DNA from: Gammaproteobacteria bacterium
GTDB lineage: Bacteria; Pseudomonadota; Gammaproteobacteria; Arenicellales; JAANXG01
Length of the DNA stretch: 64,000 nucleotides
Direction of reading: 5' to 3'
Assembly (NCBI GenBank): GCA_024639325.1
Contig: JAHEIO010000011.1
Span: forward strand, 1-64,000
A model generated the notes under the pieces. That model saw only the letters and a list, made by a program, of their open reading frames with translations, was not told the origin of the DNA and searched no databases. Below are positions 6,997 to 42,338 of this stretch, piece by piece. The position numbers and the translations under genes were made by a program. Numbering within the stretch: the first letter of the stretch is position 1; each line of letters starts with the position of its first letter.

Positions 6997-8439
6997 ATGC
7001 GCAAGCTCTTGAAACCACTGATTTTCCTGACAGGCCTAGCGGTCATGACCGGACCCGTGCAGTCGCAGAGCAACCTGCCTGATCTCGGTGACTACTCTGC
7101 AACCGTTCTATCGGCGTCAGAAGAGCAGAAGCTGGGAAGGGAGTTCATGCGACAGATTCGGCAGCAGTTGCGGTTCATCGACGATCAGGAACTGATCACT
7201 TATCTGAATCGTCTGGGCAGCATGCTGGTAAGTAACAGCGATCAACCCGGAAGAACATTTACATTCTATCTGGTGGAGGACAACGCCCTGAACGCCTTCG
7301 CCGTGCCCGGGGGCCACATCACGGTGCACACCGGATTGATCACCAACACCCTGCATGAAGCGGAATTGGCAAGCGTAATAGCGCACGAAATCGCACACGT
7401 AACCCAAAGCCACATTGCCCGCATGATCGCGCAGAACAAACGCACCAACATACCGGCGATGGCGGCGTTGATCGCGGCCATCCTGCTCGGCGGACAGGCT
7501 GGGACCGCAGCCATCATGGGAACGCAGGCAGCTCTCGTCGAAAGGCAGTTGCAGTACTCCCGCAGTTTCGAAGAAGAAGCCGACGCCATCGGAATTCAAA
7601 CTCTGGCCTCGGCAGGATACGACCCGCGCGCGATGCCGGATTTCTTTGGGCGCCTGCAGCAATACAGCCGAAGCCAGGAGTCGAATGCTCCGGAATTCCT
7701 GCGAACCCACCCATTGACCTACAGCCGAATTGCAGAATCCGTCGCACGCGCGGATCAGTACCCGCGCATCGAAAATCCGGACGAAACCCAGTTCCAACTG
7801 ATGAAGGCGAAAATCCGGGCCCTGTACAGTGGATCCGATCCGGCCCGGGTTGCACAGGGATTCGCCGTTGGTTTGAAGGAAAATACCTACGAGAATCTAT
7901 ATGCCGAGCGATACGGATATGCCCTGGCCCTCATGGCCGACGGTCAGTACCAGGCAGCCCGGGAATTGATGAGCGAACTTATTTCGCAGGACCCTGAACG
8001 ATTGAGCTACTCGATAGCCCTTGCCAATATCGAGACTGCCGACGGTCGACCCGGCGATGCGGCGAAAGCGTATCAAAGAATCAGAGCTAACCATCCCGAC
8101 AACCTGGTGCTCGATTTGTACTTCATCAACGCGCTGATCGAGAGCGAACAGTACGCGGAAGCCAAGAAGATCCTGAAAAGCCATCTGCTCTCCCGACGGG
8201 GAGACCCTCGTTTGCACAAATTATTGGCCCGAGCCGAGGGTGAATCGGGGAACCATCTCGCAGCACACCAGGAGCTGGCGGAGTTCTACTATTTCAATGG
8301 AAACTCGGCGGAGGCCCTGCGTCAACTTGGTCTGGCCAAAAAGTACACGGGGGACAGCTTTTACGCGCAATCAAGTGTTTCAGCAAGGATCGAGGAAATC
8401 CAGCAGGAACTGCGGATCCGGGGAGAGAAAATTCCCTGA
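6997..8439 (+). CDS. bepA: BepA-like periplasmic M48 metalloprotease with TPR domain
   Basis: Periplasmic zinc protease and chaperone that monitors outer-membrane beta-barrel assembly, as established for E. coli BepA (YfgC). From the ATG at 6997 it has 480 residues with a signal peptide (about residues 1-24). The zinc motif HEIAH lies at residues 130-134 and the third ligand region is EEEADAIG. A C-terminal half of TPR helices starts at about residue 290. Upstream in-frame starts (ATG 6955, TTG 6934) would place extra residues ahead of the signal peptide, so 6997 is preferred although no strong ribosome site precedes it. Length and domain order match the family. Confidence 0.93.
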   Translation: MRKLLKPLIFLTGLAVMTGPVQSQSNLPDLGDYSATVLSASEEQKLGREFMRQIRQQLRFIDDQELITYLNRLGSMLVSNSDQPGRTFTFYLVEDNALNAFAVPGGHITVHTGLITNTLHEAELASVIAHEIAHVTQSHIARMIAQNKRTNIPAMAALIAAILLGGQAGTAAIMGTQAALVERQLQYSRSFEEEADAIGIQTLASAGYDPRAMPDFFGRLQQYSRSQESNAPEFLRTHPLTYSRIAESVARADQYPRIENPDETQFQLMKAKIRALYSGSDPARVAQGFAVGLKENTYENLYAERYGYALALMADGQYQAARELMSELISQDPERLSYSIALANIETADGRPGDAAKAYQRIRANHPDNLVLDLYFINALIESEQYAEAKKILKSHLLSRRGDPRLHKLLARAEGESGNHLAAHQELAEFYYFNGNSAEALRQLGLAKKYTGDSFYAQSSVSARIEEIQQELRIRGEKIP

Positions 8440-8630
8440 TAACGAACAACCCGTCGGCGACGCCGCCTGTTCAAATTGTAATCATATTGCACGCCGACTC
8501 TCATAAAGCACCGGGCATCTGTATCGGGGCGGTTTCCCCCCTGGCCGACAAACAGGTAAAATAACGCGTTTGCAGTGCGTGAACAGAGCGTTCGCGCGGA
8601 AGAAGTTTCACGGTAACGGGAGCATTTGGA

Positions 8631-10028
8631 ATGACGAATTCGATCAAGGCAGAACCGATAAAAAACAACGAAGAAAACATTACCGACGGTGCCCACACGT
8701 ATACCCTGCGTGACAATGCGACGGGCAATACCTATGAGATTCCCGTACTGGACGGGACCGTGGGTCCAAGCGTTCTCGACGTCAGGAACCTGTACAAAGA
8801 TGTAGGCGTCTTCACCTACGATCCCGGATTTACCTCAACCGCCTCCTGCGCTTCCGGCATCACTTACATCGATGGTGACGCGGGCATTCTCCGGCATCGA
8901 GGTTACTCCATCTCCGATCTTGCGGAAAACAGCGACTACCTCGATGTCTGCTACCTGTTGTTTCACGGGGATCTGCCTTCGCCGGAAGAGAAAGAGGAGT
9001 TCGATCGCAGCATTACCAACCATACGCTGCTGCACGAACAACTCAAGCAGTTGTATCAGGGATTCAGGCGCGACGCCCACCCGATGGCCATCATGGTCGG
9101 GGTGGTCGGCGCCCTCTCGGCTTTCTATCACGACAGCACCGACATCTGGGACCCGCACCAGCGGATGATCGCATCGCACCGTCTGGTTGCCAAAATGCCG
9201 ACGATTGGCGCTTACGCCTACAAGTATTCATTAGGCCAGCCGTTCATCTCTCCCCGCAATAATCTGAGCTATGCCGAAAACCTGTTGAACATGATGTTCG
9301 GCTTGCCTACGCAGGAATATACCGTCAGCCCTGTTCTGGCGAAGGCAATGGACAAAATCCTAATCCTGCACGCCGACCACGAGCAGAATGCATCAACCTC
9401 CACGGTTCGACTCGCGGGATCGTCCCAAGCCAATCCATTCGCCTGCATTGCCGCCGGCATAGCGTCGTTGTGGGGCCCCGCACATGGCGGTGCGAACGAG
9501 GCCGTGTTGCAGATGCTTGGTGAGATCGCGGACAAGAAGAACGTTGCAAAATTCGTCAAGCGTGCACAGGATCCGGACGACAGCTACAGACTGATGGGAT
9601 TCGGCCATCGCGTCTACAAGAACTACGATCCAAGAGCGACGGTCATGCGCGAAACCTGTCACGAAGTCCTGAACGAATTGGGCATCGACGACCCGCTGCT
9701 AGAAATTGCCATGGCGCTCGAAAAAATAGCGCTCGAGGACGACTACTTCGTCAGTCGCAAACTTTACCCGAACGTCGACTTTTACTCCGGCATCATTCTG
9801 AAGGCCATGGGATTCCCACCGCACATGTTTACGGTAATTTTTGCGATCGCGCGGACGGTAGGTTGGATCGCCCACTGGAAGGAGATGATGTCCGAGCCCT
9901 CTGTAAAGATCGGACGACCCCGGCAGCTCTATACGGGCGAGGTCGAACGCCCCTTTACCAGCATTGACGTGCGCGAACACAAACAAAGCAAGGGCTGGTC
10001 CTGGTTGTGGGGCGGTTCGAGCAGCTAG
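8631..10028 (+). CDS. gltA: Citrate synthase (type II)
   Basis: Condenses oxaloacetate and acetyl-CoA to citrate in the TCA cycle. The 465-residue length is that of the hexameric type II enzymes. Catalytic residues are visible in [11 protein letters not shown] (His), [13 protein letters not shown] (His) and YPNVDFYSG (Asp). The N-terminal 120 residues hold the small domain of Gram-negative enzymes ([28 protein letters not shown]). ATG at 8631 follows a GGGAG ribosome site. It is a single gene, converging with bcp. Confidence 0.97.
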
Positions 10029-28144: not shown

Positions 28145-28957
28145 TCAGATACGGCCCAGGGGGCCCGCGGACTCGAACGCAACCGAGGCCAGGGTTTCGT
28201 TATGGCCATCAACGGAAACCGCCTGCCCGGACACCCTGGCCGCCCTGTCCGAACACAGGAAGACCGCGGATTCGCCGATATCCTCGGCATCTATGAAGGT
28301 CCGCATTGATACCTGCCGGACGTAGCCCTTGCGGACTTCCGACTCATCCACGCCAAGTGCGGCAGCCTCTTTTACGATCACCTGATTCATGCGGGGCCCG
28401 TCTACCGATCCGGGGCAGATAGCATTGACGCGGATACCGGCCGGCCCGAGTTCCATGGCCAGCGATTTCGTAATGCCGATGATTGCCCACTTGGCGCCCG
28501 CGTAAGGCGTTCGTAGCGGGTACCCCATAAGTCCTGCGGTCGATGAAATATTCAGGATACAGCCCGTACCTGCCTGCTTCATGACGGGCACGGCGCGACG
28601 CATGCACAAAAATGCACTGTGGACATTGACCTCGAAGGTATCCATCCATTCCTCGAGGGACATCGACTCGATGGCACCGGTTGGGCCGCCCACACCCGCA
28701 TTGTTGACGAGCACGTCGAGTCGGCCGCCGAAGTGCGCCAGCGCGGCATCGAAGAACTCTTCGACCTCGCGCTCACTGCCCACGTCGGCGGTCATGGCCC
28801 GGATGCCCTTTTCTTCCCGATCCATTTCACGCACGAGATCCGGATCGATATCACAGACGAAAACCCGGGCGCCCTCGCGAGCGAAAATCTCCGCGATGGC
28901 GCGACCGATGCCCCTGCCCGCCCCCGTCACGATGACATTTTTTTCTTCACACAGCAT
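28145..28957 (-). CDS. Short-chain dehydrogenase/reductase
   Basis: A 270-residue classical SDR. The cofactor motif is TGAGRGIGRA (residues 11-20) with an acidic residue after the second strand (VCDID), which favours NAD(H). NNAGVGG, the Ser in NISSTAG and YAGAK form the active site. The C-terminus VSVDGHNETLA is a normal SDR end. It lies 138 bp downstream of the LDH2-family gene on the same strand, so both may extend the aldehyde dehydrogenase operon. The substrate is unknown. Confidence 0.9.
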   Translation of the reverse strand: MLCEEKNVIVTGAGRGIGRAIAEIFAREGARVFVCDIDPDLVREMDREEKGIRAMTADVGSEREVEEFFDAALAHFGGRLDVLVNNAGVGGPTGAIESMSLEEWMDTFEVNVHSAFLCMRRAVPVMKQAGTGCILNISSTAGLMGYPLRTPYAGAKWAIIGITKSLAMELGPAGIRVNAICPGSVDGPRMNQVIVKEAAALGVDESEVRKGYVRQVSMRTFIDAEDIGESAVFLCSDRAARVSGQAVSVDGHNETLASVAFESAGPLGRI

Positions 28958-29095: not shown

Positions 29096-30100
29096 TCAAC
29101 AGTAACTGCGGATTCGATCGTGCAGCGCCGCGGCGATATAGATACCGTCCCGCGCAATCCTGTCCCGTGCGGCGAAGCGGCCGGAGCCGGGTATACGCGC
29201 TCCCTGCTGTGACAGGATAGCCTGAAGAAGTTCCTCCAGCTGTTCATAGAACAAGTCGCCTGAATATGGCGCCGGATCGATTGCGATGAAGAACTGGCCG
29301 GTACGGGGGTGGCCGCCTTTATTGTCGGCGAAGGAACTTGCGTTCTTACTCAACGTCGCCCCGGTCAGCACGGCCGCCATCAACTCTACGACCAGCGCCA
29401 GTCCCGCACCCTTGTATCCGCCGGCGGGCACCATGCTGCCCTCGAGGCCTTCCCCGGGGTCGGTAGTGCTTTGCCCTCGTGCATCCAGTGCCCAGCCTTC
29501 CGGTATGGTCTCTCTATTGGCTTTGTGAACGATGAGTTCGCTCTTGGCGACGACACTCGAAGACTGATCGACAACCACCGCCGCGTGGCCCTTGCCGTCC
29601 GGTATGGCGCAGGCAATGGGATTTGTGCCGAACAAAGGCGTCAGTCCACCGAATGGCGCGATGGATGCCGGGGCGTTGGTGAAGCCCAGGCCGACCAGAC
29701 TGGATCGTGCCAGAGCCTCAACGTGGTAGCCGAGAACGCCGCAGTTGTAAGAGTTTATAACGGCCAGGGAAGCGATGCCGTTCGAACCGGCCGCGGAGAT
29801 CAAATGTTCGAAACCAAGTTCGATGGCCGGATGGGCGAAGCCCCCGCGAGTATCGGCCTGCCATGCGCCGGCGGAAAGCTGCTTTACTGCCGCCACCGCG
29901 GCGCCGTCAAGTTTTCCACACTTGACGTGTTCGCAATAGGTCGGCAGGCGCGCGAGGCCGTGGCTGTGAATGCCGTCGAGTTCCGATGCGACGATCGATC
30001 GTGTTACGATTTCCGCGCTGCTTTGACTGGTACCGCTGCCAACCAGCGCGTCGAGGGTCAATGACCGGACGTCATCGATTGACAAATGAACTTCATTCAT
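29096..30100 (-). CDS. LDH2/malate dehydrogenase-family oxidoreductase
   Basis: A 334-residue NAD(P)-dependent dehydrogenase of the LDH2/MDH2 family, which includes YlbC, AllD and the delta-1-piperideine/pyrroline-2-carboxylate reductase DpkA. Family motifs are the catalytic GIHSHGLARLP near residue 45, NCGVLGYHVEALA, FGTNPIACAIP and GYKGAGLALVVELMA. This fold does not use a Rossmann motif, consistent with its absence. Reduction of a cyclic imino acid or oxidation of a 2-hydroxy acid are the main options. ATG at 30100 has a GAAGGAG site. Confidence 0.9.
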   Translation of the reverse strand: MNEVHLSIDDVRSLTLDALVGSGTSQSSAEIVTRSIVASELDGIHSHGLARLPTYCEHVKCGKLDGAAVAAVKQLSAGAWQADTRGGFAHPAIELGFEHLISAAGSNGIASLAVINSYNCGVLGYHVEALARSSLVGLGFTNAPASIAPFGGLTPLFGTNPIACAIPDGKGHAAVVVDQSSSVVAKSELIVHKANRETIPEGWALDARGQSTTDPGEGLEGSMVPAGGYKGAGLALVVELMAAVLTGATLSKNASSFADNKGGHPRTGQFFIAIDPAPYSGDLFYEQLEELLQAILSQQGARIPGSGRFAARDRIARDGIYIAAALHDRIRSYC

Positions 30101-30233: not shown

Positions 30234-30944
30234 CTAGTCGTTGTCGTCGAGTCCGGCTCCCGCACCGAGTGCCCGGGACCTTGCCGTAGGTTCCACAAGG
30301 GTAAGATCCGCAAAAGCCTTCAACTTTTCCCAAATGACCTCGTCGACATCGAGACCGCGCAGGGACATGTTTTCATCTTTTGCCACGACGGTGAATTTGT
30401 CGTCGACCGTCACATTCCCACAGGTGTGTTGCGACACCTCGAATTGAAACCGCCCGCTCGCGTAGGCGGCACCTTTACGAGCTATCAGCCCCAGCTCTCC
30501 GGCCGTCAGGCGAAAATCTATCGTGGAGTTCCGGTCGAACCATCGGATGAGAATCCGCGCCGTAGCCGGCATATTGGCCGCGAATTGCGCCAACTGCAAT
30601 AAAGGCACATCGACGCTGCGCAAGCAGGCCGCGCCGTCCTCGTTTGGCAGGAACAGGGTGAAGAGATCGGCCGCGGCTCCGCCAATCGATGCGGCTGACA
30701 GTCCTTCCTCACCGCATCCGGGATGCCAGTCGATCGCATCATCCGATAGGGTGAACTCACCGTAAGCCGAGACCCCGCTTTCCACCGCCACTAACGCATC
30801 GTATACGCTATCAACGGCCGGGAATCCATGCAGCGCCAGCCACAGCGCCGCTTTTCGAAGGTCCTCTGCGGCGCCCTCGGCGATACCCGTGCCGCGTGCG
30901 GCCTTCTGACAGGTCAGCATCAATTCATTCAATGATATGTGCAT
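30234..30944 (-). CDS. DUF3726 family protein
   Basis: A 236-residue protein that I match to DUF3726 by its N-terminus: a SLNELMLTCQKAARG helix, then AAEDLRKAALWLALHG. The function is unknown. No signal peptide, membrane helix or metal motif is clear. The ATG at 30944 shares one base with the stop of the upstream gene (TGATG), so the two are translationally coupled. Together with the 573-residue unknown protein, the dipeptidase homologue and the aldehyde dehydrogenase it forms the end of a four-gene operon. Confidence 0.82.
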   Translation of the reverse strand: MHISLNELMLTCQKAARGTGIAEGAAEDLRKAALWLALHGFPAVDSVYDALVAVESGVSAYGEFTLSDDAIDWHPGCGEEGLSAASIGGAAADLFTLFLPNEDGAACLRSVDVPLLQLAQFAANMPATARILIRWFDRNSTIDFRLTAGELGLIARKGAAYASGRFQFEVSQHTCGNVTVDDKFTVVAKDENMSLRGLDVDEVIWEKLKAFADLTLVEPTARSRALGAGAGLDDND

Positions 30945-32665
30945 CAAACCGGATTCGAAGCGGCGGACTCCATGCCCTCGATCACCGGGAAGCACCAGTC
31001 GTCGGCATCGTCGGCGTGCAGTTCCTCCGGCAGAGGCGCGCCCTGGTACATGGTGATGCGGGTCCATCGGTCCGATTTGGGATCGAATTTGGTGGCGCCG
31101 AAGAATGAAAGCTTGCCGCGCAGCATATCGATGGGCCGCATGTGTTCATCCAGAAGGTTGTCCTGGATTTCTCCGTAGGGCCGGCAAACCATGTTCTGAA
31201 TCCGCCTGACGATATGCCGGTGTTGTGGATGGAGTGCGAGGAACACGGCCACCGTCTGATGCGGATTTCTCGTGGCCTTGAGATCCGCGTAAACGCGCTG
31301 CGCCTGCACCGCGACGCCCAGCGGCATTTCCTTGTCCGTGCCGGTCTCATCGTCGCGTACCCCTATTCGGGGTTCGAGCTTTTCCTTCGAAACATACCAG
31401 AACCAGTGGCTGGCGCCAGCCTGTTCGAAATCGATCTGCAGTGCCCACTCGTAGCTTTGTTCGATAGTATCGATAAGTTCCCGCACCGTGGCATCGGGAT
31501 GGATGGATACGCTCTCGTCCGCGCCCATGGTACATTCCAGCTCATCGACCAGCTCGGGGTACGGCTCCATCAGCAGGCTGGCCAGCATCTCCTGCGCCTC
31601 CATCGAAAGGCTGGTCTCGGCCCACTGCATCAACTCGTGCCACGGATAGTGTTCATCGATAGGCCGATTACGAATGTGTTCGAGGTCTTTGCTCAGCTGC
31701 TCGATACGGACGCACTGCAGTGCATCGTCGGTGCGCCATTGATGGACGTGCTCGGCCGCGCGCTCAAGCAGCGTCCGGAACCGCTCCACTTTTTCCGGCG
31801 TCGCAGTTGGGACGGCTCTGACCCGCCCCAGCGCCGTTTCTCTTGCCACGATCCAGTTGTTCAGCAGTGCCGGGTGTTTGTGCAGATACGGCGCCATACC
31901 CAGCCCGGTGGCGTTGCCGATTCCAAGTATAGTTTTGCGCTGCTTGTCCAGTTTTACACTGCGTCCGCCGCCGCGCATCGAAGCGACGTGATCCACCAGA
32001 TCGTGGGTGAAACAGCGGATGAGATAAACGGACAGGAGTTCGGCGCGGTATGGGCTGCACATCACCTCCTCGCGCATGACCTTTTCGCGGTCCGACAGGC
32101 CGAACTTACCGTTGCCATAGACCGCGGTTGTCCGCATCAGGTAGCCCACCTCGGCCAGACGCTGGATTTCAGGCTGCCTGCCATCTGCCAGACACTCCAC
32201 TACGTAGTCGAACAACCGCACGCTCTTGTTGGCGCGGCTCAGCACCAGTTCGGATGAAGAACAACGGCCCGCTTCCTGCAGCGGGATGCAGCGGCCCAGC
32301 CGCTCAATGTCCGCATTGTCGGGTATGCCGTCAACCAGTGCAAACGTCACGTCCCACTTATCCGCGATCACCCGGTCCGTCCTGTCCGCGTCGTCGAGTT
32401 CGTTCGAAAACGCGACCAGGCTATATGAGCGTTCCGGCGTACGGACCGTATATACGGCCACCCCGTAACCGAGCTCGTTTACGTCCCAGTGCGTTCTTTC
32501 GATTGTCCACTTTTCCCGGTTCATGCGGCGAACCAGCGAGCGCATGAAACTTATCCTGGTCTGGTGAAGGCTGCCCATACGCTCCAGCCGCATAACCACA
32601 TGGGGAGGTCGCATGTACCTCTCGATACCGGCATCGACCGCAGACAATGATTGATCAGGATTCAT
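30944..32665 (-). CDS. Conserved hypothetical protein (573 residues)
   Basis: A large soluble protein with no family that I recognise. It has no signal peptide, no membrane segment and no nucleotide-binding motif. Features seen include an N-terminal Arg-rich helix (RISFMRSLVRRMNREKW), a beta-rich part (GVAVYTVRTPERSYSLVAF), a MRGGGRSVKLDKQRKTILG stretch, ATGLGMAPYLHKHPALLN, and a C-terminal Trp-rich part (ASHWFWYVSKEKLEPRIG). The ATG at 32665 lies 11 bp inside the end of the dipeptidase gene, so translation is coupled. It is co-encoded with a DUF3726 protein, which suggests that both act on the same pathway. Confidence 0.82.
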   Translation of the reverse strand: MNPDQSLSAVDAGIERYMRPPHVVMRLERMGSLHQTRISFMRSLVRRMNREKWTIERTHWDVNELGYGVAVYTVRTPERSYSLVAFSNELDDADRTDRVIADKWDVTFALVDGIPDNADIERLGRCIPLQEAGRCSSSELVLSRANKSVRLFDYVVECLADGRQPEIQRLAEVGYLMRTTAVYGNGKFGLSDREKVMREEVMCSPYRAELLSVYLIRCFTHDLVDHVASMRGGGRSVKLDKQRKTILGIGNATGLGMAPYLHKHPALLNNWIVARETALGRVRAVPTATPEKVERFRTLLERAAEHVHQWRTDDALQCVRIEQLSKDLEHIRNRPIDEHYPWHELMQWAETSLSMEAQEMLASLLMEPYPELVDELECTMGADESVSIHPDATVRELIDTIEQSYEWALQIDFEQAGASHWFWYVSKEKLEPRIGVRDDETGTDKEMPLGVAVQAQRVYADLKATRNPHQTVAVFLALHPQHRHIVRRIQNMVCRPYGEIQDNLLDEHMRPIDMLRGKLSFFGATKFDPKSDRWTRITMYQGAPLPEELHADDADDWCFPVIEGMESAASNPV

Positions 32666-33650
32666 GAGCTGTGAACGACCTATTATAGAAGCGAAACCAG
32701 TTGCCCCCCATGATTTTGTCGACTTCATCGTTGGAGAACCCCTGGCGGGTCAAGCCTTCACTGATATTTCGAAAATCCAGATTGCTCCGGAACCAAGCCG
32801 GCTGTGCCGGCCAGTCGCTGTCGTCGGCCGATCCCTCACCAAAATCCATTTCCAGCGACCAGCGGCCGCTGCGCATCCAGGTGAGCACCGACGTCGGCTG
32901 GTTTTGGCACAGGTCCGTGCCCAGACCGAGATTGTCGATGCCCATGATGTCGGCGGTTGTTGCGACCATTTCACAAAAATCCGTGAGCTTGCAGTGCGGA
33001 CCATCCTTGAGATGGAACGGATAAACGCTGAATCCAAGCATGCCCCCGCTATCGGCGAGAGCCCGGAGCACGGCATCGGACTTGTTGCGCAGCGCCTGTC
33101 TGAAAAACGCGGGATTGGCATGTGTGATCGCGATGGGCCGCTGTGAAATGTCAATGGCATCCAGGGTGGATCGTTCACTGCTGTGAGACATGTCGACGGT
33201 CATGCCGACCCGATTCATCTCCGCGATGACCTGCTTGCCAAAGCGCGTGATTCCAGGATCCACGGTTTCGTAGCAACCGGTCGCCAGCGGGCTCTGGTTG
33301 TTGTAGGACAACTGCATGAACCGGATACCAAGCTGGTGGAAAATCTCCACCAGACCGACGTCGTTGTCTATGGGGGAACAATTCTGGAATCCGAAAACGA
33401 TGCCGGTCCGGTTTGATTCCCTTGCCCGGTTGACATCTTCGGCATATCGAACCGGCATGATGAGGTCTTGGTGGATCCTGAACAGCTTGTGCCATTCGGT
33501 GATGTTGTTGATGGTTTCGATGGTGGTTTCCCAATACACGATCGTTACGTGTACGCAGTCCACGCCGCCGGCGCGCATCTGCTCGAATATCTCCCGGCTC
33601 CAGTTGGAATACTGAAGACCATCGATAACAGGCGCTCCGTGCCGGTCCAT
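32655..33650 (-). CDS. M19 membrane dipeptidase-family protein with altered metal site
   Basis: A 331-residue TIM-barrel protein of the renal dipeptidase family, without a signal peptide. Two metal His are kept: H156 in VDMSHSS and H177 in ITHANP, and the barrel-end DLCQ region with GLGTD is present. But the N-terminal DGHxD motif reads DGLQY (L12 and Y14 replace the His and Asp ligands), and the bridging Glu of the family is a Gln (Q89 in FGFQN). Thus one zinc site is lost. The protein may have another hydrolase or isomerase role. It starts 3 bp after the aldehyde dehydrogenase stop. Relatives are found in dimethylglycine/betaine loci of Pseudomonas. Confidence 0.85.
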   Translation of the reverse strand: MDRHGAPVIDGLQYSNWSREIFEQMRAGGVDCVHVTIVYWETTIETINNITEWHKLFRIHQDLIMPVRYAEDVNRARESNRTGIVFGFQNCSPIDNDVGLVEIFHQLGIRFMQLSYNNQSPLATGCYETVDPGITRFGKQVIAEMNRVGMTVDMSHSSERSTLDAIDISQRPIAITHANPAFFRQALRNKSDAVLRALADSGGMLGFSVYPFHLKDGPHCKLTDFCEMVATTADIMGIDNLGLGTDLCQNQPTSVLTWMRSGRWSLEMDFGEGSADDSDWPAQPAWFRSNLDFRNISEGLTRQGFSNDEVDKIMGGNWFRFYNRSFTAHES

Positions 33651-33653
33651 GGG

Positions 33654-35093
33654 TCAGGTTTCCGCTCGCGTATAGCAGGTCTTGACCTGGGTATAGAATT
33701 CGCGCGCGTAGGTCCCCTGCTCCCGACTGCCGTAGCTCGAGTTCTTTCGGCCGCCGAAGGGTACGTGGTAGTCCGTGCCCGCGGTGGGCAGATTAACCAT
33801 GACGCACCCGGTCTTGGCGTTGCGCCTGAAATGCGCCGCCTTGGAAAGCGAGCGCGTGATGATGCCGGAGGTCAGACCAAATTCGGTATCGTTCACCAGG
33901 GCAAGTGCGTGGTCATAGTCGTCGGCTTCTATCACGCAGGTGATCGGCCCGAATATCTCTTCCCGGTTGATGCGCATGTCGTTGTCGCCACGGATGAACA
34001 GCGCGGGCGCCATGAAGTATCCCTCGGTCACGCGTTTGACCCGGTCGCCACCGCAGACGAGTTTGGCACCTTCCGACTTGCCGAGCTTCAGGTATTGCTC
34101 GTTCTGCTCCAACTGAGCCTGGTCCACCACCGGGCCGATCTGGGTCCTCTCCTCCAGGGCGTGGCCCACCCGCAGCGACACGGTAGCATGCATCATCCTG
34201 TCCACGAACTCGTCGTGTATCGCCTGATGGACGATCAGCCGCGATGAGGCCGTACATTTCTGCCCGGTTCCGAAGAAGGCGCCGTTGATCGCGCAGTCGA
34301 CCGCGACGTCCACACTGGCCTCGTCGTCGATATACAGCGCATTCTTAGAACCCATCTCCAACTGGATCTTGGTTAGGTTCGGTACCGCCCGGGCGGCAAT
34401 CTTGCGGCCGCTGTTCAGCGAACCGGTAAAGGTGACGGCGTCGATTTTGCCGCTGCCGACCAGCAAATCTCCGATGGTACCACCGCCCCCCATGACCAGA
34501 TTGAACACACCCGCCGGCAGTTCCTGCCGGCCGATGATCTCGGACAGCTTGACCGCGACGGCCGGTGTCAGGTTCGACGGTTTCCATATCACCGAATTGC
34601 CATAAGCCAGTGCCGGAGCGATCTTCCAGGCCGCAGTTGCGATGGGAAAATTCCACGGCGTGATGATTGCCACGACGCCCATGGGTTCACGGCGAACCTC
34701 CACATCCACACCTGACCGGACCGAATCCGCGCATTCGCCCATCTGGCGCAGTACCTCGGCCGCGTAGTAGGTGAAGAACTGGCCCGATCGATAGACCTCG
34801 CCCCTGCCTTCGGCTAGGGGTTTTCCTTCTTCCCGCGACAGCAGTTCGCCCAGTTCACCCGACCTGTCCATGAGATCACGACCGATGCTCAGCAGCGCTT
34901 CATAGCGCTTCTCCAGCCCGAATCCCGCCCATTCGTCCTGCGCGTCACGAGCCGCGTCGAGCGCCCTGTCGAGGTCGTTGGCGTCCGCCTGGGCAAAGTT
35001 CCCAATGACATCATCCAGATCAGAGGGATTGATATCGGCAATCTGGTCGCTCCCGCCGCACCACCTGCCAGCAATAAAATTCTTGTTCGTCAT
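33654..35093 (-). CDS. NAD(P)-dependent aldehyde dehydrogenase
   Basis: A 479-residue ALDH. The catalytic Cys is C280 in GTGQKCTASSR and the general base is E246 in QLEMGSKN; the ITPWNFP motif ends at residue 150 and the cofactor loop is FTGSLNSGR. The GTGQKCTASSR form is typical of 2,5-dioxovalerate (alpha-ketoglutaric semialdehyde) dehydrogenases, which serve hydroxyproline and sugar-acid breakdown; this is a likely, not certain, substrate. It is the first gene of the four-gene operon and diverges from the HyuA-like gene across 243 bp. Confidence 0.92.
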   Translation of the reverse strand: MTNKNFIAGRWCGGSDQIADINPSDLDDVIGNFAQADANDLDRALDAARDAQDEWAGFGLEKRYEALLSIGRDLMDRSGELGELLSREEGKPLAEGRGEVYRSGQFFTYYAAEVLRQMGECADSVRSGVDVEVRREPMGVVAIITPWNFPIATAAWKIAPALAYGNSVIWKPSNLTPAVAVKLSEIIGRQELPAGVFNLVMGGGGTIGDLLVGSGKIDAVTFTGSLNSGRKIAARAVPNLTKIQLEMGSKNALYIDDEASVDVAVDCAINGAFFGTGQKCTASSRLIVHQAIHDEFVDRMMHATVSLRVGHALEERTQIGPVVDQAQLEQNEQYLKLGKSEGAKLVCGGDRVKRVTEGYFMAPALFIRGDNDMRINREEIFGPITCVIEADDYDHALALVNDTEFGLTSGIITRSLSKAAHFRRNAKTGCVMVNLPTAGTDYHVPFGGRKNSSYGSREQGTYAREFYTQVKTCYTRAET

Positions 35094-35336: not shown

Positions 35337-37421
35337 ATGGCTGAACAAACTCGCAGACGGAGCCTGTATCTGGGCGTCGATACCGGCGGAACGTATACCG
35401 ATGCGGTCCTCCTGAACGCGTCGAACTCGTCGATCCTGCGCAGCGGCAAGGCATTGACCACCCGCTACGATCTCGCCATCGGTCTCCGCAACGCCATGGG
35501 AAGCGTGATATCGGACCTGCCTGACGGCTACGCTCGGGCGGAAATCAGAATGGTATCGATATCCACGACACTCGCTACCAATGCCCTTGTCGAAGGTGAC
35601 GGCTCGCGGATTTGCTCAATTTTCATCGGCTACGAACAGAGCATGGTCGACAAGAGCATGATCCGCCAAAAGCTCCCGGACGCACGGGTTTTCAATATTT
35701 ACGGGGGCCACGACGGCATGGCCCGCGAGATCACCACGCTCAATGAATTCGAGCTGGAAAAGATCGTACGTGAACAGGCTGATGCGGTGGATGCATTTGC
35801 CGTCTCAGCCCAGTTCAGCGTCCGCAATCCCTCCCATGAACTGAGGGCGAAAGAGCTCATCGGCCGGATTTGCGACAAGCCGGTGACTTGCGGACATGAA
35901 TTGACATCGGCTCTGGATGCACCACGGCGCGCATTGACGACCGCACTCAATGCCAGCTTGATCCCCAAGATTCGGGGCCTGATTCTTGCCGTCAGGCAGT
36001 GTATGTCCGACCTTGGAATTGAGGCGCCACTGATGGTGGTCAAGGGGGACGGTACGGTGATCGCCGCTGATGTCGTGCAGGAGCGCCCTATCGAAACCAT
36101 CTTGTCAGGGCCTGCGGCAAGCATGATCGGCGCCCAGGCTCTTTCCGGAATAGACGATTTTATTTTGTCGGACATGGGCGGCACCACAACAGACATCGGC
36201 GTGCTGCAGGGCGGCAGGGTCAAATTGAGCGACGAAGGCGCCATCGTGGGAGATGCCCGCACCATGGTCCAGGCCATCGATTTGCGCACCTTTGCATTGG
36301 GGGGCGACAGCCTGGTCGACATCGACCGCGACGACCGCGTTCAGCTTGGTCCCAGACGGGCGGTTCCGATCAGCCAGATCGGCCATTCGCCGGGGGTGCT
36401 CAAGGAATTGCAAATCCAACTCTCGCACAAGGATATCATCCCGTTTTCCGGTTGGTTTGCCGTGATGCAGCGAGCTCATGTCGATGCGGCATCGATCGAC
36501 CCGAAAAAAGCCGAAATCCTCGAGCGCCTGAAGGATAAGCCCTGTCCACTGGATCACATCATCATCAGCCACAGCCACAGGCGCCACCTGCACGATTTGT
36601 GCCGTTCAGGTCATGTCAGTTATTCCGGTTTTACGCCCACCGATGCACTTCACATCTCCGGCGAGTTCACAGAGTGGTCAACCGAGGCGGCTGAACTGGG
36701 AGCGGCAGCGATACTGCGTTGGCGCCGCGGGATCAAGAACCCGGCCTCCGCCCAGATCGAGCGGTTTTGCAGCGAGGTCGGGGACGCCGTTCAGACCAGC
36801 GCCAGCATGTCACTACTGGACCTCGCGTTCCAAAGCCCTGATGTCGACGACCCCCTTGGGATCGTGCTTGACCGGCGTGAACACGGGGAGCCGTTCAACT
36901 CCCTGGTCAGCCGGGGGGTCAGGCAAGTCGGGCTGGCCTGCATAGACATCAAACTGAAATCGCCGATCGTAGCTGTGGGAGCGCCGGTCAAAGCTTACTA
37001 CCCGGAAATCGGCCGGCGCCTGGGCTGTGAAACGGTCATGCCCGACCATTTCGAGGTAGCCAACGCTGTCGGTGCCGTAACCGGTTTGATCATCCAGGGC
37101 TGCGAGATTCTGATCAGCCGTCCGGATAACGGGTCTTATCGCGTCCACCTGACAGACGGCCCCGTCGAACTGGAAACCTGGCACCAGGCGCTTGAATTTG
37201 CAAAGCAAGCCGCGTCCAACCTCGCACGGAACAGCGCCCAGCGGTCCGGTGCCGCTACGGCCAAAGTCGAGTACTCCATCGACAAAATTCATCTACCCGG
37301 GACCAGCGGCGATGACGGCATCATCGAAGCGGTAATCAAGGCTGAGGCCATTGGAAGGCCAGCCCCGGTATCGCCCCGGGTGGGAGCCGAAAACGCCGAT
37401 TCAGCTCACGGATTGCATTAG
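35337..37421 (+). CDS. Hydantoinase A/oxoprolinase-family protein
   Basis: A 694-residue protein of the ASKHA-fold hydantoinase A family. The N-terminal domain has the phosphate loop GVDTGGTYTDAVL (about residues 14-26) and STTLATNALVEG. The main Hydantoinase_A domain holds KGDGTVIAADVV, ETILSGPAAS and SDMGGTTTDIGVL (about 280). A GFTPTDALH segment follows. Family members couple ATP hydrolysis to ring opening of hydantoins or oxoproline, or carboxylate acetone and acetophenone. The HyuB partner is not adjacent. A TRAP transporter remnant lies directly downstream on the other strand. Confidence 0.85.
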   Translation: MAEQTRRRSLYLGVDTGGTYTDAVLLNASNSSILRSGKALTTRYDLAIGLRNAMGSVISDLPDGYARAEIRMVSISTTLATNALVEGDGSRICSIFIGYEQSMVDKSMIRQKLPDARVFNIYGGHDGMAREITTLNEFELEKIVREQADAVDAFAVSAQFSVRNPSHELRAKELIGRICDKPVTCGHELTSALDAPRRALTTALNASLIPKIRGLILAVRQCMSDLGIEAPLMVVKGDGTVIAADVVQERPIETILSGPAASMIGAQALSGIDDFILSDMGGTTTDIGVLQGGRVKLSDEGAIVGDARTMVQAIDLRTFALGGDSLVDIDRDDRVQLGPRRAVPISQIGHSPGVLKELQIQLSHKDIIPFSGWFAVMQRAHVDAASIDPKKAEILERLKDKPCPLDHIIISHSHRRHLHDLCRSGHVSYSGFTPTDALHISGEFTEWSTEAAELGAAAILRWRRGIKNPASAQIERFCSEVGDAVQTSASMSLLDLAFQSPDVDDPLGIVLDRREHGEPFNSLVSRGVRQVGLACIDIKLKSPIVAVGAPVKAYYPEIGRRLGCETVMPDHFEVANAVGAVTGLIIQGCEILISRPDNGSYRVHLTDGPVELETWHQALEFAKQAASNLARNSAQRSGAATAKVEYSIDKIHLPGTSGDDGIIEAVIKAEAIGRPAPVSPRVGAENADSAHGLH

Positions 37422-37438
37422 CCTGCCTGAAACGACAT

Positions 37439-37939
37439 CTAATGGGTTATGATTTCCGGTCCCATCAGCGATATCGGCAGCCAGGTCGATATCGCCGGCA
37501 CGTAGGTCACCAGGATCAGGAAGAAGAACATGATCCCCAGGAACGGCAGAGCGGCCTTGACCACGTTCAACACCGACATCCCCGCGACGCCAGCGGTGAC
37601 GAACAGGTTCAGTCCCACCGGCGGCGTGATCATCCCGATCTCCATGTTGACCACCATGATAATGCCGAGGTGGATCGGGTCGATACCGAGGGTAATGGCG
37701 ATGATGAACATCAGCATGATAGTCAGCTTGCCGGCCTAGAACAGGGTCTTGCGCGTGTCCTCGTGCCAGAATACGGACAATGCGCGCAGGGTCAGCAGCG
37801 CCGTGGCCAGAAGCAGGGCAAAATAGGGCCGGTAGCTGATCGAATGGCCCAACAGATCGTCCATGGCCGAGGCGTCGAATCGCCTCTTCCCAACCATAGC
37901 TGATGATCTCAAAACCTTCGCTGGTATGGTCCTGCGCAC
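37439..37939 (-). pseudogene. Remnant of a TRAP transporter (DctQ end plus DctM C-terminus)
   Basis: On the minus strand, codons from 37717 down to 37439 encode the last ~92 residues of a DctM large permease: LGIIMVVNMEIGMITPPVGLN and following helices, ending at the stop at 37439. Directly upstream in the same frame is a TAG, and before it a short membrane segment (LLLATALLTLRALSVFW) that looks like the tail of a DctQ-type subunit. More than 300 codons of DctM are missing. This is a deletion remnant and should not make a working transporter. Confidence 0.75.
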
Positions 37940-37943
37940 CTTT

Positions 37944-38203
37944 AGCCCGCATATTGCACCAGTATCCCAAGCGATGACGCAGGACAGGTTTGACTGCGCG
38001 CCGGTCTGGAGCGAGGAGCGTAGCCGTCGCTACGGTCCGAGTGAAGACCAAGCCCAGGCGAAGCTGAACAAGTCAGCACCGGCATCGGACGACCCCGATA
38101 ACAAACTGTTCTTTGAATCAATCAATCCAAATCTGTGTATTGGTGAAATAGATCAGGGGCATAGAAAACAATCAAGGCCGGTCTGGTGCAACATGCGGGT
38201 TAG
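37944..38203. repeat. MITE-like palindromic element, long copy with internal insert
   Basis: The left part (37944-38009) aligns with the reverse complement of 45345-45426, with about 58 of 66 positions the same by eye. The element then breaks at CCGGTCTGG (38001-38009) and resumes at a second CCGGTCTGG (38178-38186), ending with the terminal repeat GGTGCAACATGCGGGTTAG. The outer ends are inverted repeats of about 20 bp (AGCCCGCATATTGCACCAG on the left). The 168-bp middle has no clear coding content. It lies between the TRAP and LivK remnants. Confidence 0.6.
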
Positions 38204-38598
38204 AGCAAAGAAGTTTGAATTCCGGGATTAGTCAAACATTGATCCATGTCAATGATTCTCGAGACGCCGCTTAGTATTCTTAATCCTTAAATAAACTACC
38301 ACAAGCCTCAAGCAGGAAGCGCACCGCTAATCTCGAAGCGGGAGGAAGGTATTTGAACAACAATGGGCGGCGTCTGCTCGTAGCCATTACGCGTGATACT
38401 TCCTTGCGACGTCCCACAAAGAAAGGAGCGTTAACGCCCCCGCGTCGCGATCTCTTCGTCCCATGGCGCGCGGCTGCCAGACTATGTCGAAATCTATGAC
38501 GATACTTAGCTACGGATTCTTGCGTTTGCTCCCTGTTGTGCCGACTGTGGGTTATCGTCGTTGGGTTGCTGCATTCGGAGCAGTAACCTTTTGCGCAA
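38204..38598. other. Non-coding decayed stretch
   Basis: About 395 bp with no intact gene. A GGAGGAAGG ribosome-like site near 38340 precedes a short TTG frame starting NNNGRRLLVAI, which looks like the start of a signal peptide, perhaps the N-terminus of the broken binding protein downstream. It runs out of sense within about 50 codons. Confidence 0.45.
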
Positions 38599-38910
38599 AT
38601 GATGAAAAAGTCCTACGACATGGCATTGGAGGTGATCAACCGGAAAGGCGGCATCGAGGGCAGACGATTGAAAATCGTTTTCGCCGATGACCTCAAGCGG
38701 GCGGACACGCTGGAATCGGAAAGCATCCATGCCGCCTTCAGCCGGACGGACATCAAGACGGCCTTCGGTCCACTCGCGTTCCAGAGTTACGACAAGTTCG
38801 AGCGCCAGAACAGCCTGCCGACAATGGTGCTCAAGGTTGTGAATGGCGCGTTCGAGGTGGTCTGGCCGCAGGACATCGAGACTTCAATATCCACCGTCCC
38901 TGTGGAATAG
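38599..38910 (+). pseudogene. Remnant of a LivK-type ABC substrate-binding protein
   Basis: A 103-codon frame that joins two distant parts of a periplasmic branched-chain amino-acid-type binding protein. YDMALEVINRKGGIEGRRL is the usual stretch near residue 40-60 of such proteins. It runs into GPLAFQSYDKFERQNSLPT and then a typical C-terminus with VVWPQDIETS. About 250 residues between these parts are missing, and there is no proper signal peptide. It is therefore a deletion remnant. With the TRAP remnant upstream it marks a decayed transport locus. Confidence 0.72.
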
Positions 38911-38997
38911 AGGGACACCCGCCACGGCACAGAATGTCGTGTTTACTCAAACGCCATAATGGCAATGATGATCATAGTGAAAGAGGAGATTTCAAGC

Positions 38998-39972
38998 ATG
39001 AAAAAACCAATCAACGGTCTAATCGCGATTAGCCTCGTGTTGATCACAGGCTTGCTCACGCTGCCTTTGGACGCGAACGCCGCCAAGCGAATCGTTTTCG
39101 GTGGCGGGCCTGCCGGCGGCACGTTCCAGGTCGTCGCCAACGCCATTCAGACCTACGACCCGGTAAAAGCAATCGAAGAGTTCACCGTCAAGGCGCAGTC
39201 ATCGGCAGGTTCGGTGGAAAACCTACGCAAGGTCAACTCCGGCAAATCCCAAATGGGCGTGGTGTATTCGGGTCATGTCTACCTGGGCAGGAACGGACAG
39301 CTCAAGAACGATACCAATAAGTATGAGGACGTAATGGCCGTTTCCTACCTGTACGGCGCGCCGGCGCAGCTGGTGGTAAGAGCTGGCTCGGGCATCAACA
39401 GCACCAAGGACCTGGTCGGCAAGAAGGTCGGCGTCGGCAATGCCGGTTCCGGCGCCTTCGCCAACTGTGAGCTGTTTTTTACTCATATGGGCGTATGGGA
39501 CGAGATCGAACGCAACGCGATGGGCTACAACGACGCCGCCGCTGCCTTCGGCAACAACCAGCTGGACGCGTTCTGGCTGTTCACCGCGTTCCCGAGCGGC
39601 GCCGTCATTATGGCGGCTCAGACCAACGACATCGAGCTGGTGAATCTCGCAAAGGATGCGGCAGACAGCGGATTCTTCGACCAGTATCCCTATTTCACTA
39701 AACTTTCCGTTCCCGCCGGCACCTACAAGGGCGTGGACGCCGAGACGCCGTCGTTCCAGGACTCGGCGCTGTGGGTAGCCAACTCCAAGGTTCCCGACGA
39801 CGTGGTGTACAAGCTTTTGTCCACCATCTACACGGACGAAGGGCTTGCTCACATGGTCCAGCAGAAGAAGACCTTCAAAGATATGGCCATCAAGACCGGG
39901 GCCGACGGCATCGTCACCCCGTTTCACCCGGGTGCAGCCAAGTTCTGGAAGGAAAAGGGGATTCTGCAGTAA
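38998..39972 (+). CDS. TRAP transporter substrate-binding protein, TAXI family
   Basis: A 324-residue periplasmic binding protein with a signal peptide (about residues 1-27, ending LDANA). TAXI features: FGGGPAGGTFQVVANAIQ at the mature N-terminus, NSGKSQMGVVYSGHVY, and KDLVGKKVGVGNAGSGAFANC near residue 140. TAXI proteins bind dicarboxylates, glutamate and similar acids for the fused permease encoded next. The ATG at 38998 has a strong GAGGAG site; in-frame ATGs up to 38959 precede the site. First gene of an operon with the permease and a UspA protein. Confidence 0.93.
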   Translation: MKKPINGLIAISLVLITGLLTLPLDANAAKRIVFGGGPAGGTFQVVANAIQTYDPVKAIEEFTVKAQSSAGSVENLRKVNSGKSQMGVVYSGHVYLGRNGQLKNDTNKYEDVMAVSYLYGAPAQLVVRAGSGINSTKDLVGKKVGVGNAGSGAFANCELFFTHMGVWDEIERNAMGYNDAAAAFGNNQLDAFWLFTAFPSGAVIMAAQTNDIELVNLAKDAADSGFFDQYPYFTKLSVPAGTYKGVDAETPSFQDSALWVANSKVPDDVVYKLLSTIYTDEGLAHMVQQKKTFKDMAIKTGADGIVTPFHPGAAKFWKEKGILQ

Positions 39973-40055
39973 ACCGTTGAAGCCTAGAGGGCGGGAAACG
40001 GAATTACCGCCCTCCTCATTCGCAAGCGTGCCGCTGAAACCGGGGAGGTAATAAC

Positions 40056-41768
40056 ATGTACGAGCAACTGAACAAAATCGAAAAAATAGTATTCGACGCC
40101 TGCTCCGTGTTTCTCGTCCTGTTCTACTCCTACTCGGCGGTGCTGCAACCGACGGCCACGCAGTATCACCGCGGGATCTATATCGTCATCACCTACGTGC
40201 TGGTGTTTCTGCTGTACAAGTCCAAAAACCCCCTCATGCGGGTGATCGATTACATCCTCATCACGCTGTCCATTGCGACCATTGGCTACTGGATCATCAA
40301 TTTCGAGGCGATCAATTACCGCACCGGAGCCGAGACCGATCTCGATATGGCCATCGCGGTAGTCGGCGTGTTGATCGGCGTGGAGTTGGCCAGACGGGTG
40401 GTGGGCACGGTCTTCGTCATCCTCGGCGGGGTGATGCTGCTCTACGGCGCCTATGGCGAGTACGCACCGGAACTGATCTCCCACGCGGGCGATACGTTTC
40501 CGGCGCTGTGTACCTCCATCTTCTACAAAAGCGACGGCGTATTCGGCATCATGGCCAACGTGCTGGCGACCTATGTCCTGCTGTTCGTCATTTTTGGGGG
40601 ATTCTTGGAAAAATGTGGGGCGCAGAAATTTTTCATCGACTTTCCCCTCGCCGCCGTCGGACACAGAATAGGTGGACCAGGAAAGGTGTCGGTAATCGCC
40701 AGCGGCCTGTTCGGCTCCATATCGGGCAGCGCCATCGCCAATACCGTCTCCACCGGTGCATTTACCATCCCGATGATGAAGAGGGCGGGATTCAAGCCGC
40801 ACGTGGCGGGGGGAATCGAGCCCGCCGCCTCCATCGGCGGCATGTTCATGCCCCCCATCATGGGCGCCGGGGGCTTCATCATGGCGGAGCTGACTGGCGT
40901 TCCCTACTCTCAAATCATGCTGGTCGCCATCTTTCCCGCCTTCATGTATTTCTTCAGCGTCTACATCATGGTGCATTACGAAGCGAAGAAGTACAACGTG
41001 GTCGGGGATAAGTCTGCCACCAGCGCCATGGAGATCCTGAAGAAGGAGTGGTTCTACATACTGCCGCTCGCGGTGATCACGTTTTTTATGCTGTCCGGAT
41101 ACTCGCCGGCCTATTCGGCAATTCTGGGGACAGTGACGTGCATCGTCATCAGCTGGTTCAGAAAAGAGACGCGCATTGACTTGAAAGGGTTCGTAGAGGC
41201 TTCCCGGGCGGGCACCGAAGCGAGTCTGAAAATCGGCGCCACTGTCGGCGTTATCGGCATCATCATCGGCGTGTTGACCTACAGCGGGCTGTTGCTGACG
41301 TTTGCCGATATCGTAATCGAACTCGCGGACGGGAGGCTGTTTTTGACCATCCTGCTGATCGCGCTGGTGTCGCTGATCCTCGGCATGGGTGTCCCGGTGA
41401 CGGCGGCATACCTCATCACCGCGGTGGTCGCCGTGCCGGCGCTCACTCACCTCGGCGTCAACGAAATTGCCGCGCACATGATCGTGTACTGGTTGTCGCA
41501 GGACTCCAACATCACACCGCCGGTGTGCATTGCGGCTTTTGCGGGCGCCACTATTGCCAAGGCGGACATGTGGTTGACCGCATTCACCGCCTTCAAGTTC
41601 GCCAAGTTTTTATATCTGGCGCCGTTTCTGTTCGGTTATGTGCCGGGCTTCTCCCTGAACGGAAGCGCAACCGACATCACCATAACCTTCGTGCTGGTCA
41701 TGTTCGGCACCTTCGCATATTCGTGGCTGCTGAGCGGGATCTGGCTGCCGAAGAAAAAGACGGCGTAA
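40056..41768 (+). CDS. TRAP transporter fused permease (4TM/12TM)
   Basis: A 570-residue membrane protein that joins the small (DctQ-like) and large (DctM-like) permease parts, the arrangement found with TAXI binding proteins. Four N-terminal helices lie within about residues 10-150. The DctM part has the conserved GLFGSISGSAIANTVSTG, KPHVAGGIEPAASIGGMFMPP and LILGMGVPVTAAYLI segments. It imports organic acids with sodium. ATG at 40056 has a GGGGAGG site 83 bp after the binding protein. Confidence 0.95.
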   Translation: MYEQLNKIEKIVFDACSVFLVLFYSYSAVLQPTATQYHRGIYIVITYVLVFLLYKSKNPLMRVIDYILITLSIATIGYWIINFEAINYRTGAETDLDMAIAVVGVLIGVELARRVVGTVFVILGGVMLLYGAYGEYAPELISHAGDTFPALCTSIFYKSDGVFGIMANVLATYVLLFVIFGGFLEKCGAQKFFIDFPLAAVGHRIGGPGKVSVIASGLFGSISGSAIANTVSTGAFTIPMMKRAGFKPHVAGGIEPAASIGGMFMPPIMGAGGFIMAELTGVPYSQIMLVAIFPAFMYFFSVYIMVHYEAKKYNVVGDKSATSAMEILKKEWFYILPLAVITFFMLSGYSPAYSAILGTVTCIVISWFRKETRIDLKGFVEASRAGTEASLKIGATVGVIGIIIGVLTYSGLLLTFADIVIELADGRLFLTILLIALVSLILGMGVPVTAAYLITAVVAVPALTHLGVNEIAAHMIVYWLSQDSNITPPVCIAAFAGATIAKADMWLTAFTAFKFAKFLYLAPFLFGYVPGFSLNGSATDITITFVLVMFGTFAYSWLLSGIWLPKKKTA

Positions 41769-41777
41769 CGTCCAACA

Positions 41778-42338
41778 ATGTATAAGCCCAGAAAGATGAA
41801 TAATCCTCGACAACTTCCAAGCATAGAATACAAGAAAATACTCTACGCAACAGATCTGTCGGAAGCGGGGCGGTCCGCGTTCCCGCATGCGGCAAGTATC
41901 GCCAACCACTACGACGCGGGACTCACCGTCTTCCATGTCGTCGAAACCGAGGAGTTCGAAAAGTACGTCGTCGGGTACATCAGTGAAGATTTCTGGGACG
42001 ATCTCAAAAAAAAGAGTCTGCAAGAAGCCAGAGATATCTTGATCAGCAGGAAAAGAGACAACGCGGAGATCAAAGACGCGGTCGATGCGTTCTGTCAGGA
42101 TGCGCTGGCCGAAGGCCAAGAGAAGCCGTTCGTATCCTATGACATCGTCGTGGAGTCGGGTGACCCGGTAGAGCGGATCACTGAGAAGGCCAGCACCGGC
42201 AACTACGACCTCATTGTCATGGGCAATCACGGACGAAGAGGGCTCAAGGAAACGCTGATGGGGAGCACGGCGTGGCGCGTACTGCATCACTCCAGCGTAC
42301 CGGTCCTGGTGGTGTGGCTGCCCGACGCGGGAGACTGA
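41778..42338 (+). CDS. Universal stress protein UspA family
   Basis: A 186-residue single-domain Usp. It starts with KKILYATDLSEAG, and the ATP-binding signature GNHGRRGLKETLMGSTA (G-2x-G-9x-GS) is complete near residue 155, so nucleotide binding is likely. It lies 9 bp after the TRAP permease. Usp proteins at the ends of TRAP operons, such as TeaD of Halomonas, are known to modulate the transporter, and the same is inferred here. An in-frame ATG at 41796 is an alternative start. Confidence 0.9.
   Translation: MYKPRKMNNPRQLPSIEYKKILYATDLSEAGRSAFPHAASIANHYDAGLTVFHVVETEEFEKYVVGYISEDFWDDLKKKSLQEARDILISRKRDNAEIKDAVDAFCQDALAEGQEKPFVSYDIVVESGDPVERITEKASTGNYDLIVMGNHGRRGLKETLMGSTAWRVLHHSSVPVLVVWLPDAGD

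Follow-up and report, generated by a model that had tools for sequence, protein, structure and literature searches.

The window analyzed here (64,000 nucleotides, positions 1 to 64,000 of contig JAHEIO010000011.1 from a gammaproteobacterium of the order Arenicellales) carries an operon with a three-gene core: a homolog of peptidase family M19, a 573-residue protein from an unannotated family (P573) and a DUF3726 protein. P573 and DUF3726 are obligate partners. The three genes are called the core because DUF3726 always adjoins P573 and because, within the order, this M19 subfamily occurs only in genomes that contain P573. An aldehyde dehydrogenase (ALDH), an LDH2-family reductase or RidA, a LysR regulator and a transporter are frequent additions. 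We tentatively read the operon as a so far undescribed gene set for the catabolism of an osmolyte, of the quaternary-ammonium or the related sulfonium type, a reading to which we give somewhat less than an even chance. A literature search, in which a lead for S. meliloti via gabT3/gabD3 yielded nothing on the P573 locus, returned neither a published description of the operon nor a paper that names DUF3726, which agrees with an earlier note on this DNA, made from the sequence alone, whose author knew of no described pathway with this gene set.

Obligate partnership of P573 and DUF3726

The surveys for P573 were confined to the phylum, and DUF3726 was counted when a match exceeded the family cut-off. 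Among 60 relatives from the same order, P573 was found in 32 genomes (in two of them as short fragments) and DUF3726 in 25, and all 25 DUF3726 genes adjoin P573. The 321 genomes representing the class yielded 13 cases of each, all adjacent; a 14th DUF3726 match was below the cut-off. For 398 genomes from the phylum, the counts were 29 (P573) and 27 (DUF3726), again all adjacent. The earlier note had proposed this co-occurrence as a check, with independent occurrence in most genomes counting against its claim; no DUF3726 above the cut-off was found away from P573 in the three samples, so this objection does not hold. A profile that we built ourselves detects a DUF3726-like reading frame beside several P573 genes that lack a Pfam DUF3726 match (e.g., in loci L010, L012 and L094).

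The commonest junction of the two genes across species is a 4-bp overlap (ATGA). On a plasmid from Mesorhizobium sp. 131-2-1 (L105), they are fused into a single frame of 814 residues, in which a short linker joins two intact halves; the fusion was seen in this one record only. Because of the obligate co-occurrence, the conserved overlap and the natural fusion, P573 and DUF3726 probably form a complex, which strengthens the suggestion in the earlier note that the coupled pair might do so. It is probable that the M19 homolog joins them in a multi-subunit enzyme. In a mirror-tree comparison, P573 and DUF3726 distances correlate at 0.80, but this was left out of the evidence because host ancestry alone would produce such a correlation.

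Pfam and NCBIfam gave no match for P573, and neither sequence nor profile searches of the PDB brought up a meaningful relative. When the family profile and its members were compared to the PDB and Pfam, just weak coiled-coil-type or scattered matches were obtained. The family itself has no known relative; the operon as a whole would be a betaine-type catabolic system. P573 relatives with about 50% sequence identity are spread through the phylum, and a 98% identical copy is on a contig from uncultured Gammaproteobacteria; the assembly that contains the window is fragmented. Dozens of residues are strictly conserved across the phylum at this level of identity. The alignment has ten invariant arginines and one invariant histidine, and no cysteine is conserved at 90%. 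This residue pattern argues against Rieske or iron-sulfur chemistry in P573. No P573 homolog was found in the viral contigs that were scanned. AlphaFold2 predictions from single sequences reached a pLDDT of 36 (P573) and 40 (DUF3726), so that the models were unusable.

Relationship of the core proteins to LDH2 and peptidase family M19

Judged from sequence comparison, DUF3726 is related to the LDH2 family (Ldh_2; DpkA, AllD, sulfolactate dehydrogenase) but truncated. Comparison of the DUF3726 family profile with the N-terminal region of LDH2 gave an E-value of 1.2e-4 and a probability of 56%. Some DUF3726 proteins from other species match PF02615 directly (one with 39.4 bits over residues 3-135, where the gathering score is 38.8), while the copy from the window has no direct match. 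The first ~135 residues of such proteins align with LDH2 positions 1-138. Because the match ends near position 138 of 333, so that the remainder of the dehydrogenase is missing, and because the catalytic histidine of the LDH2 SHG motif is not conserved (the DUF3726 alignment has no conserved histidine at all), DUF3726 is predicted not to be a complete LDH2 dehydrogenase. It has its own conserved C-terminal tail instead (SRxxGAGAGLxDND). A full LDH2 gene is often next in the operon, and it follows DUF3726 in many other species; the closest PDB entry to the one from the window is a delta1-piperideine-2-carboxylate reductase. A split LDH2 enzyme, made up of P573 and DUF3726, was considered and rejected, since P573 shows no similarity to LDH2.

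The M19 homolog matches its family over the whole domain. Its closest PDB entry is 2i5g (E 3.6e-69), which we take to be PA5396 from the dgcAB locus of Pseudomonas aeruginosa, whereas the best true renal dipeptidase reaches E 2.4e-20. The dinuclear zinc site of renal dipeptidase consists of an HxD motif, a bridging Glu, two His and one Asp. H156, H177, R188-N189 and D246 are retained in the M19 homolog, which thus keeps the two His and the Asp of the metal site. However, an alignment of 55 relatives, set against 3id7 and 2i5g, shows L-Q-x in place of HxD and Gln in place of the bridging Glu. As these ligands are gone across the whole subfamily, the residue pattern indicates that the protein is not a canonical dipeptidase, and its description as a dipeptidase homolog in the earlier note should not be taken to mean dipeptidase function. 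The subfamily was found in 30 of the 60 relatives from the order, in several cases on another contig than P573; all 30 genomes contain P573, and it is absent from those without P573. Its members are 51-76% identical, the nearest relative being excluded.

M19 proteins with the same DGL/GxQN motifs, equally devoid of HxD and the Glu, are found in other settings. One adjoins DUF5943-V4R in Paracoccus (L156, 6363-7954), and one follows soxBDAG in Azospirillum (L157, 1810-8438). The 2i5g-type group seems to have a broader place in N-methyl amine catabolism. In Vibrio natriegens and P. aeruginosa, a predicted dipeptidase gene (pepD) and a hypothetical gene precede dgcAB (PMC12093977). This dimethylglycine locus (pepD, hypothetical gene, dgcAB, fixAB) also pairs a predicted dipeptidase with an uncharacterized protein in a betaine-catabolic context, but that partner is not P573-DUF3726, and demethylation there is due to the flavoprotein DgcAB, which was not seen beside the P573 operon. 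Neither dgcA nor dgcB is among the operon genes and identified neighbors in the window.

Genomic context and candidate substrates

The gene cluster is carried by many marine and soil Proteobacteria, among them Vibrio, rhizobia, relatives of Roseobacter and numerous uncultured gammaproteobacteria. The loci repeatedly run from LysR through ALDH, M19, in some cases a BCCT transporter gene, P573, DUF3726, and LDH2 or RidA to a transporter. We gathered 72 loci, not all of which are independent, and scanned neighbor genes within 6 kb with our own gene caller. M19 was found in 57 of these (with two more annotated), ALDH in 34, BCCT in 19 and LDH2 in 18. A betaine-type transporter is linked to the operon in other species. 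In 21 of 47 genomes, from ~14 genera, P573 has a BCCT gene within ~4 kb, while ~0.4 would be expected upon random placement (our own arithmetic, from 138 BCCT matches in 182 Mb), which is a more than 50-fold excess. Genes for a glycine-betaine ABC transporter are found beside the operon in three loci (L106, L112 and L158). In Ruegeria, Phaeobacter and Shinella, soxBDAG adjoins the operon, as does purU in Shinella. The locus from Phaeobacter porticola has a Rieske gene and a dimethylglycine dehydrogenase-like gene nearby, and some P573 loci contain MttB genes.

One copy of the operon in Phaeobacter inhibens adjoins a dimethylsulfoniopropionate (DMSP) demethylation cluster. In several gammaproteobacterial loci (L045, L058 and L059, also L049 and L055), a DddP-like M24 protein is encoded next to or near M19-P573-DUF3726. 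The one from L058 scores 401 bits against the NCBIfam DddP equivalog cut-off of 600, and its closest PDB entries are DddP (4rzy, E 2e-96); these neighbors may be DMSP lyases or new relatives thereof. On account of this context in other species (BCCT, glycine-betaine ABC, soxBDAG, purU, Rieske and DddP-like genes), a betaine-like osmolyte is proposed as the substrate class.

The ALDH subfamily of the operon is found in 8 of 13 tested genomes with P573, and in none of 7 without. The best PDB matches of the ALDH are betaine aldehyde dehydrogenases, with aminoaldehyde dehydrogenases also being similar. The best NCBIfam model is that for alpha-ketoglutaric semialdehyde, with 477 bits, far under its cut-off of 770 bits. 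2-Oxoglutarate semialdehyde, named as an example in the earlier note, is a possible end product.

The proposed route starts with a heteromeric P573-DUF3726 enzyme, whose large subunit would be supported by DUF3726, the small, LDH2-derived subunit with the conserved tail at its C-terminus. Acting with the M19 homolog, it would split or demethylate the osmolyte, yielding an aldehyde and an amine or imino acid. The ALDH would oxidize the aldehyde, and either the LDH2-family reductase or RidA would process the amine or imino acid. Sarcosine oxidase and PurU would, in certain hosts, take over the N-methyl product and its one-carbon unit. It is conceivable, if rather doubtful, that P573-DUF3726 represents a new class of heteromeric enzymes, unrelated in sequence to known oxygenases, flavoproteins and corrinoid methyltransferases, and that it carries out the initial cleavage of a widespread osmolyte, aided by the M19 protein with its incomplete metal site. 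Known betaine-type catabolic operons (proline betaine, trigonelline) share the logic of a transporter combined with an aldehyde dehydrogenase; we know of no P573, DUF3726 or M19 homolog in operons of that type. If an abundant methylated osmolyte is indeed degraded, this would supply a missing piece of the carbon and nitrogen cycles in the sea and the rhizosphere. It would also provide a role for two uncharacterized protein families and would partly account for the presence of M19 proteins with an incomplete metal site in N-methyl amine loci. The three-gene core is present in laboratory strains (Phaeobacter inhibens, Ruegeria sp. TM1040 and Sinorhizobium meliloti), so that the proposal is directly testable.

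Several points weigh against an osmolyte module. The literature search returned no expression or fitness data for the operon. In the window, neither a BCCT nor a ProU gene is found beside the operon; instead, hyuA and a TAXI/TRAP transporter are nearby. In five loci (L046, L048, L050, L052 and L155), P573-DUF3726 pairs have no adjacent M19, ALDH or BCCT gene, and soxD is mostly not near P573. Transporters are of varying types (two BCCT types, ProU-type ABC, polyamine-type ABC, TAXI), and different lineages may accordingly use different substrates. A divergent rhizobial clade fits an omega-amino acid route as well. It should be noted that the five loci with lone pairs are from one family of the order and lie close to uvrC, a few genes away; three of the genomes carry the M19 gene on a different contig.

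In a route of this kind, for omega-amino acids or polyamine derivatives, the three core proteins would free an amino acid or an amino aldehyde, for example GABA (gamma-aminobutyrate), beta-alanine, or a derivative of the guanidino or amide type. Aminotransferase, succinate semialdehyde dehydrogenase (SSADH) or ALDH, and RidA would complete the degradation, and betaine transporters would have been recruited later. The trio is indeed accompanied by a polyamine-type ABC transporter in Sinorhizobium, Ensifer, Neorhizobium, Bosea and Aminobacter, in several cases also by a GabT-like aminotransferase, SSADH and RidA; Pot-type transporters are found in some gammaproteobacterial loci as well, and the similarity of the ALDH to aminoaldehyde dehydrogenases is in line with this. 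However, P573 from the rhizobial clade has only 29-34% identity, and BCCT and glycine-betaine transporters predominate in the main clade. We consider this route unlikely. An unlikely alternative of another kind is that P573-DUF3726 is a noncatalytic pair, regulatory or chaperone-like (a sensor or scaffold), which serves an osmolyte pathway or stress. The loss of most of the LDH2 coenzyme domain in DUF3726 and of metal ligands in M19 is consistent with this, as are the many invariant arginines and the lack of conserved cysteines in P573 and the pairs that stand alone. The dozens of strictly conserved P573 residues and the exclusive link with one M19 subfamily are more suggestive of an enzyme core, however, and regulators (LysR, IclR) are already present in the loci.

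The earlier note had also considered the breakdown of a cyclic amide (hydantoin, oxoproline), in which HyuA would open the ring and the operon would finish the chain. HyuA is transcribed divergently from the 243-bp intergenic region that it shares with the ALDH, and this arrangement is conserved in the genus of the window (L042 and L043). In the other families examined, though, the operon was not found to have HyuA next to it, no HyuB subunit was seen beside HyuA, and the M19 protein lacks the dipeptidase metal ligands. HyuA looks like a local addition, and we regard this breakdown as very improbable. Of the substrate classes put forward in that note, the betaines have thus gained support from the transporter context in other species, while cyclic amides have lost ground.

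Gene layout and local neighbors

The genes of the operon are listed in Table 1. On the minus strand, they are in the order ALDH, M19, P573, DUF3726, LDH2 and SDR (short-chain dehydrogenase/reductase). ALDH and M19 are separated by a 3-bp gap, M19 and P573 overlap by 11 bp, and P573 and DUF3726 by 1 bp (TGATG). The operon and its spacings had thus been described correctly in the earlier note, as had the LDH2 and SDR genes downstream and HyuA upstream, all three with Pfam matches. Alpha-, Beta- and Gammaproteobacteria repeatedly show the same gene order and close packing, so the layout is beyond chance. An alternative upstream ATG would extend P573 to 594 residues. None of the other families examined showed an SDR gene at this place, so that the SDR is probably a local addition outside the conserved module.

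Table 1. Genes of the operon and its immediate surroundings in the window.
Gene product	Positions	Strand	Length (aa)	Remarks	Basis
ALDH, aldehyde dehydrogenase family	33654..35093	-	479	betaine-aldehyde/alpha-ketoglutaric-semialdehyde dehydrogenase-like	Pfam Aldedh, E 2.9e-151
M19 homolog	32655..33650	-	331	core gene; without HxD and bridging-Glu metal ligands	Pfam Peptidase_M19
P573	30944..32665	-	573	core gene; unannotated family	phylum-wide relatives, invariant residues
DUF3726 protein	30234..30944	-	236	core gene; predicted truncated LDH2 relative, obligate P573 partner	PF12525
LDH2-family oxidoreductase	29096..30100	-	334	frequent operon member	Pfam Ldh_2
SDR	28145..28957	-	270	probably local addition	Pfam adh_short_C2
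HyuA-like protein	35337..37421	+	694	divergent from ALDH; association genus-limited	Pfam Hydant_A_N and Hydantoinase_A

Beyond hyuA, the region from 37421 to 38959 contains just a 103-residue remnant of a periplasmic binding protein and has ~500 bp less sequence than a sister genome (L042), which codes for an intact branched-chain-type periplasmic binding protein of 404 residues at the corresponding place (7975-9186). This is followed, at 38959-42338 and still close to the operon, by a TAXI-type TRAP transporter (binding protein and DctM-type permease) and then a universal stress protein.

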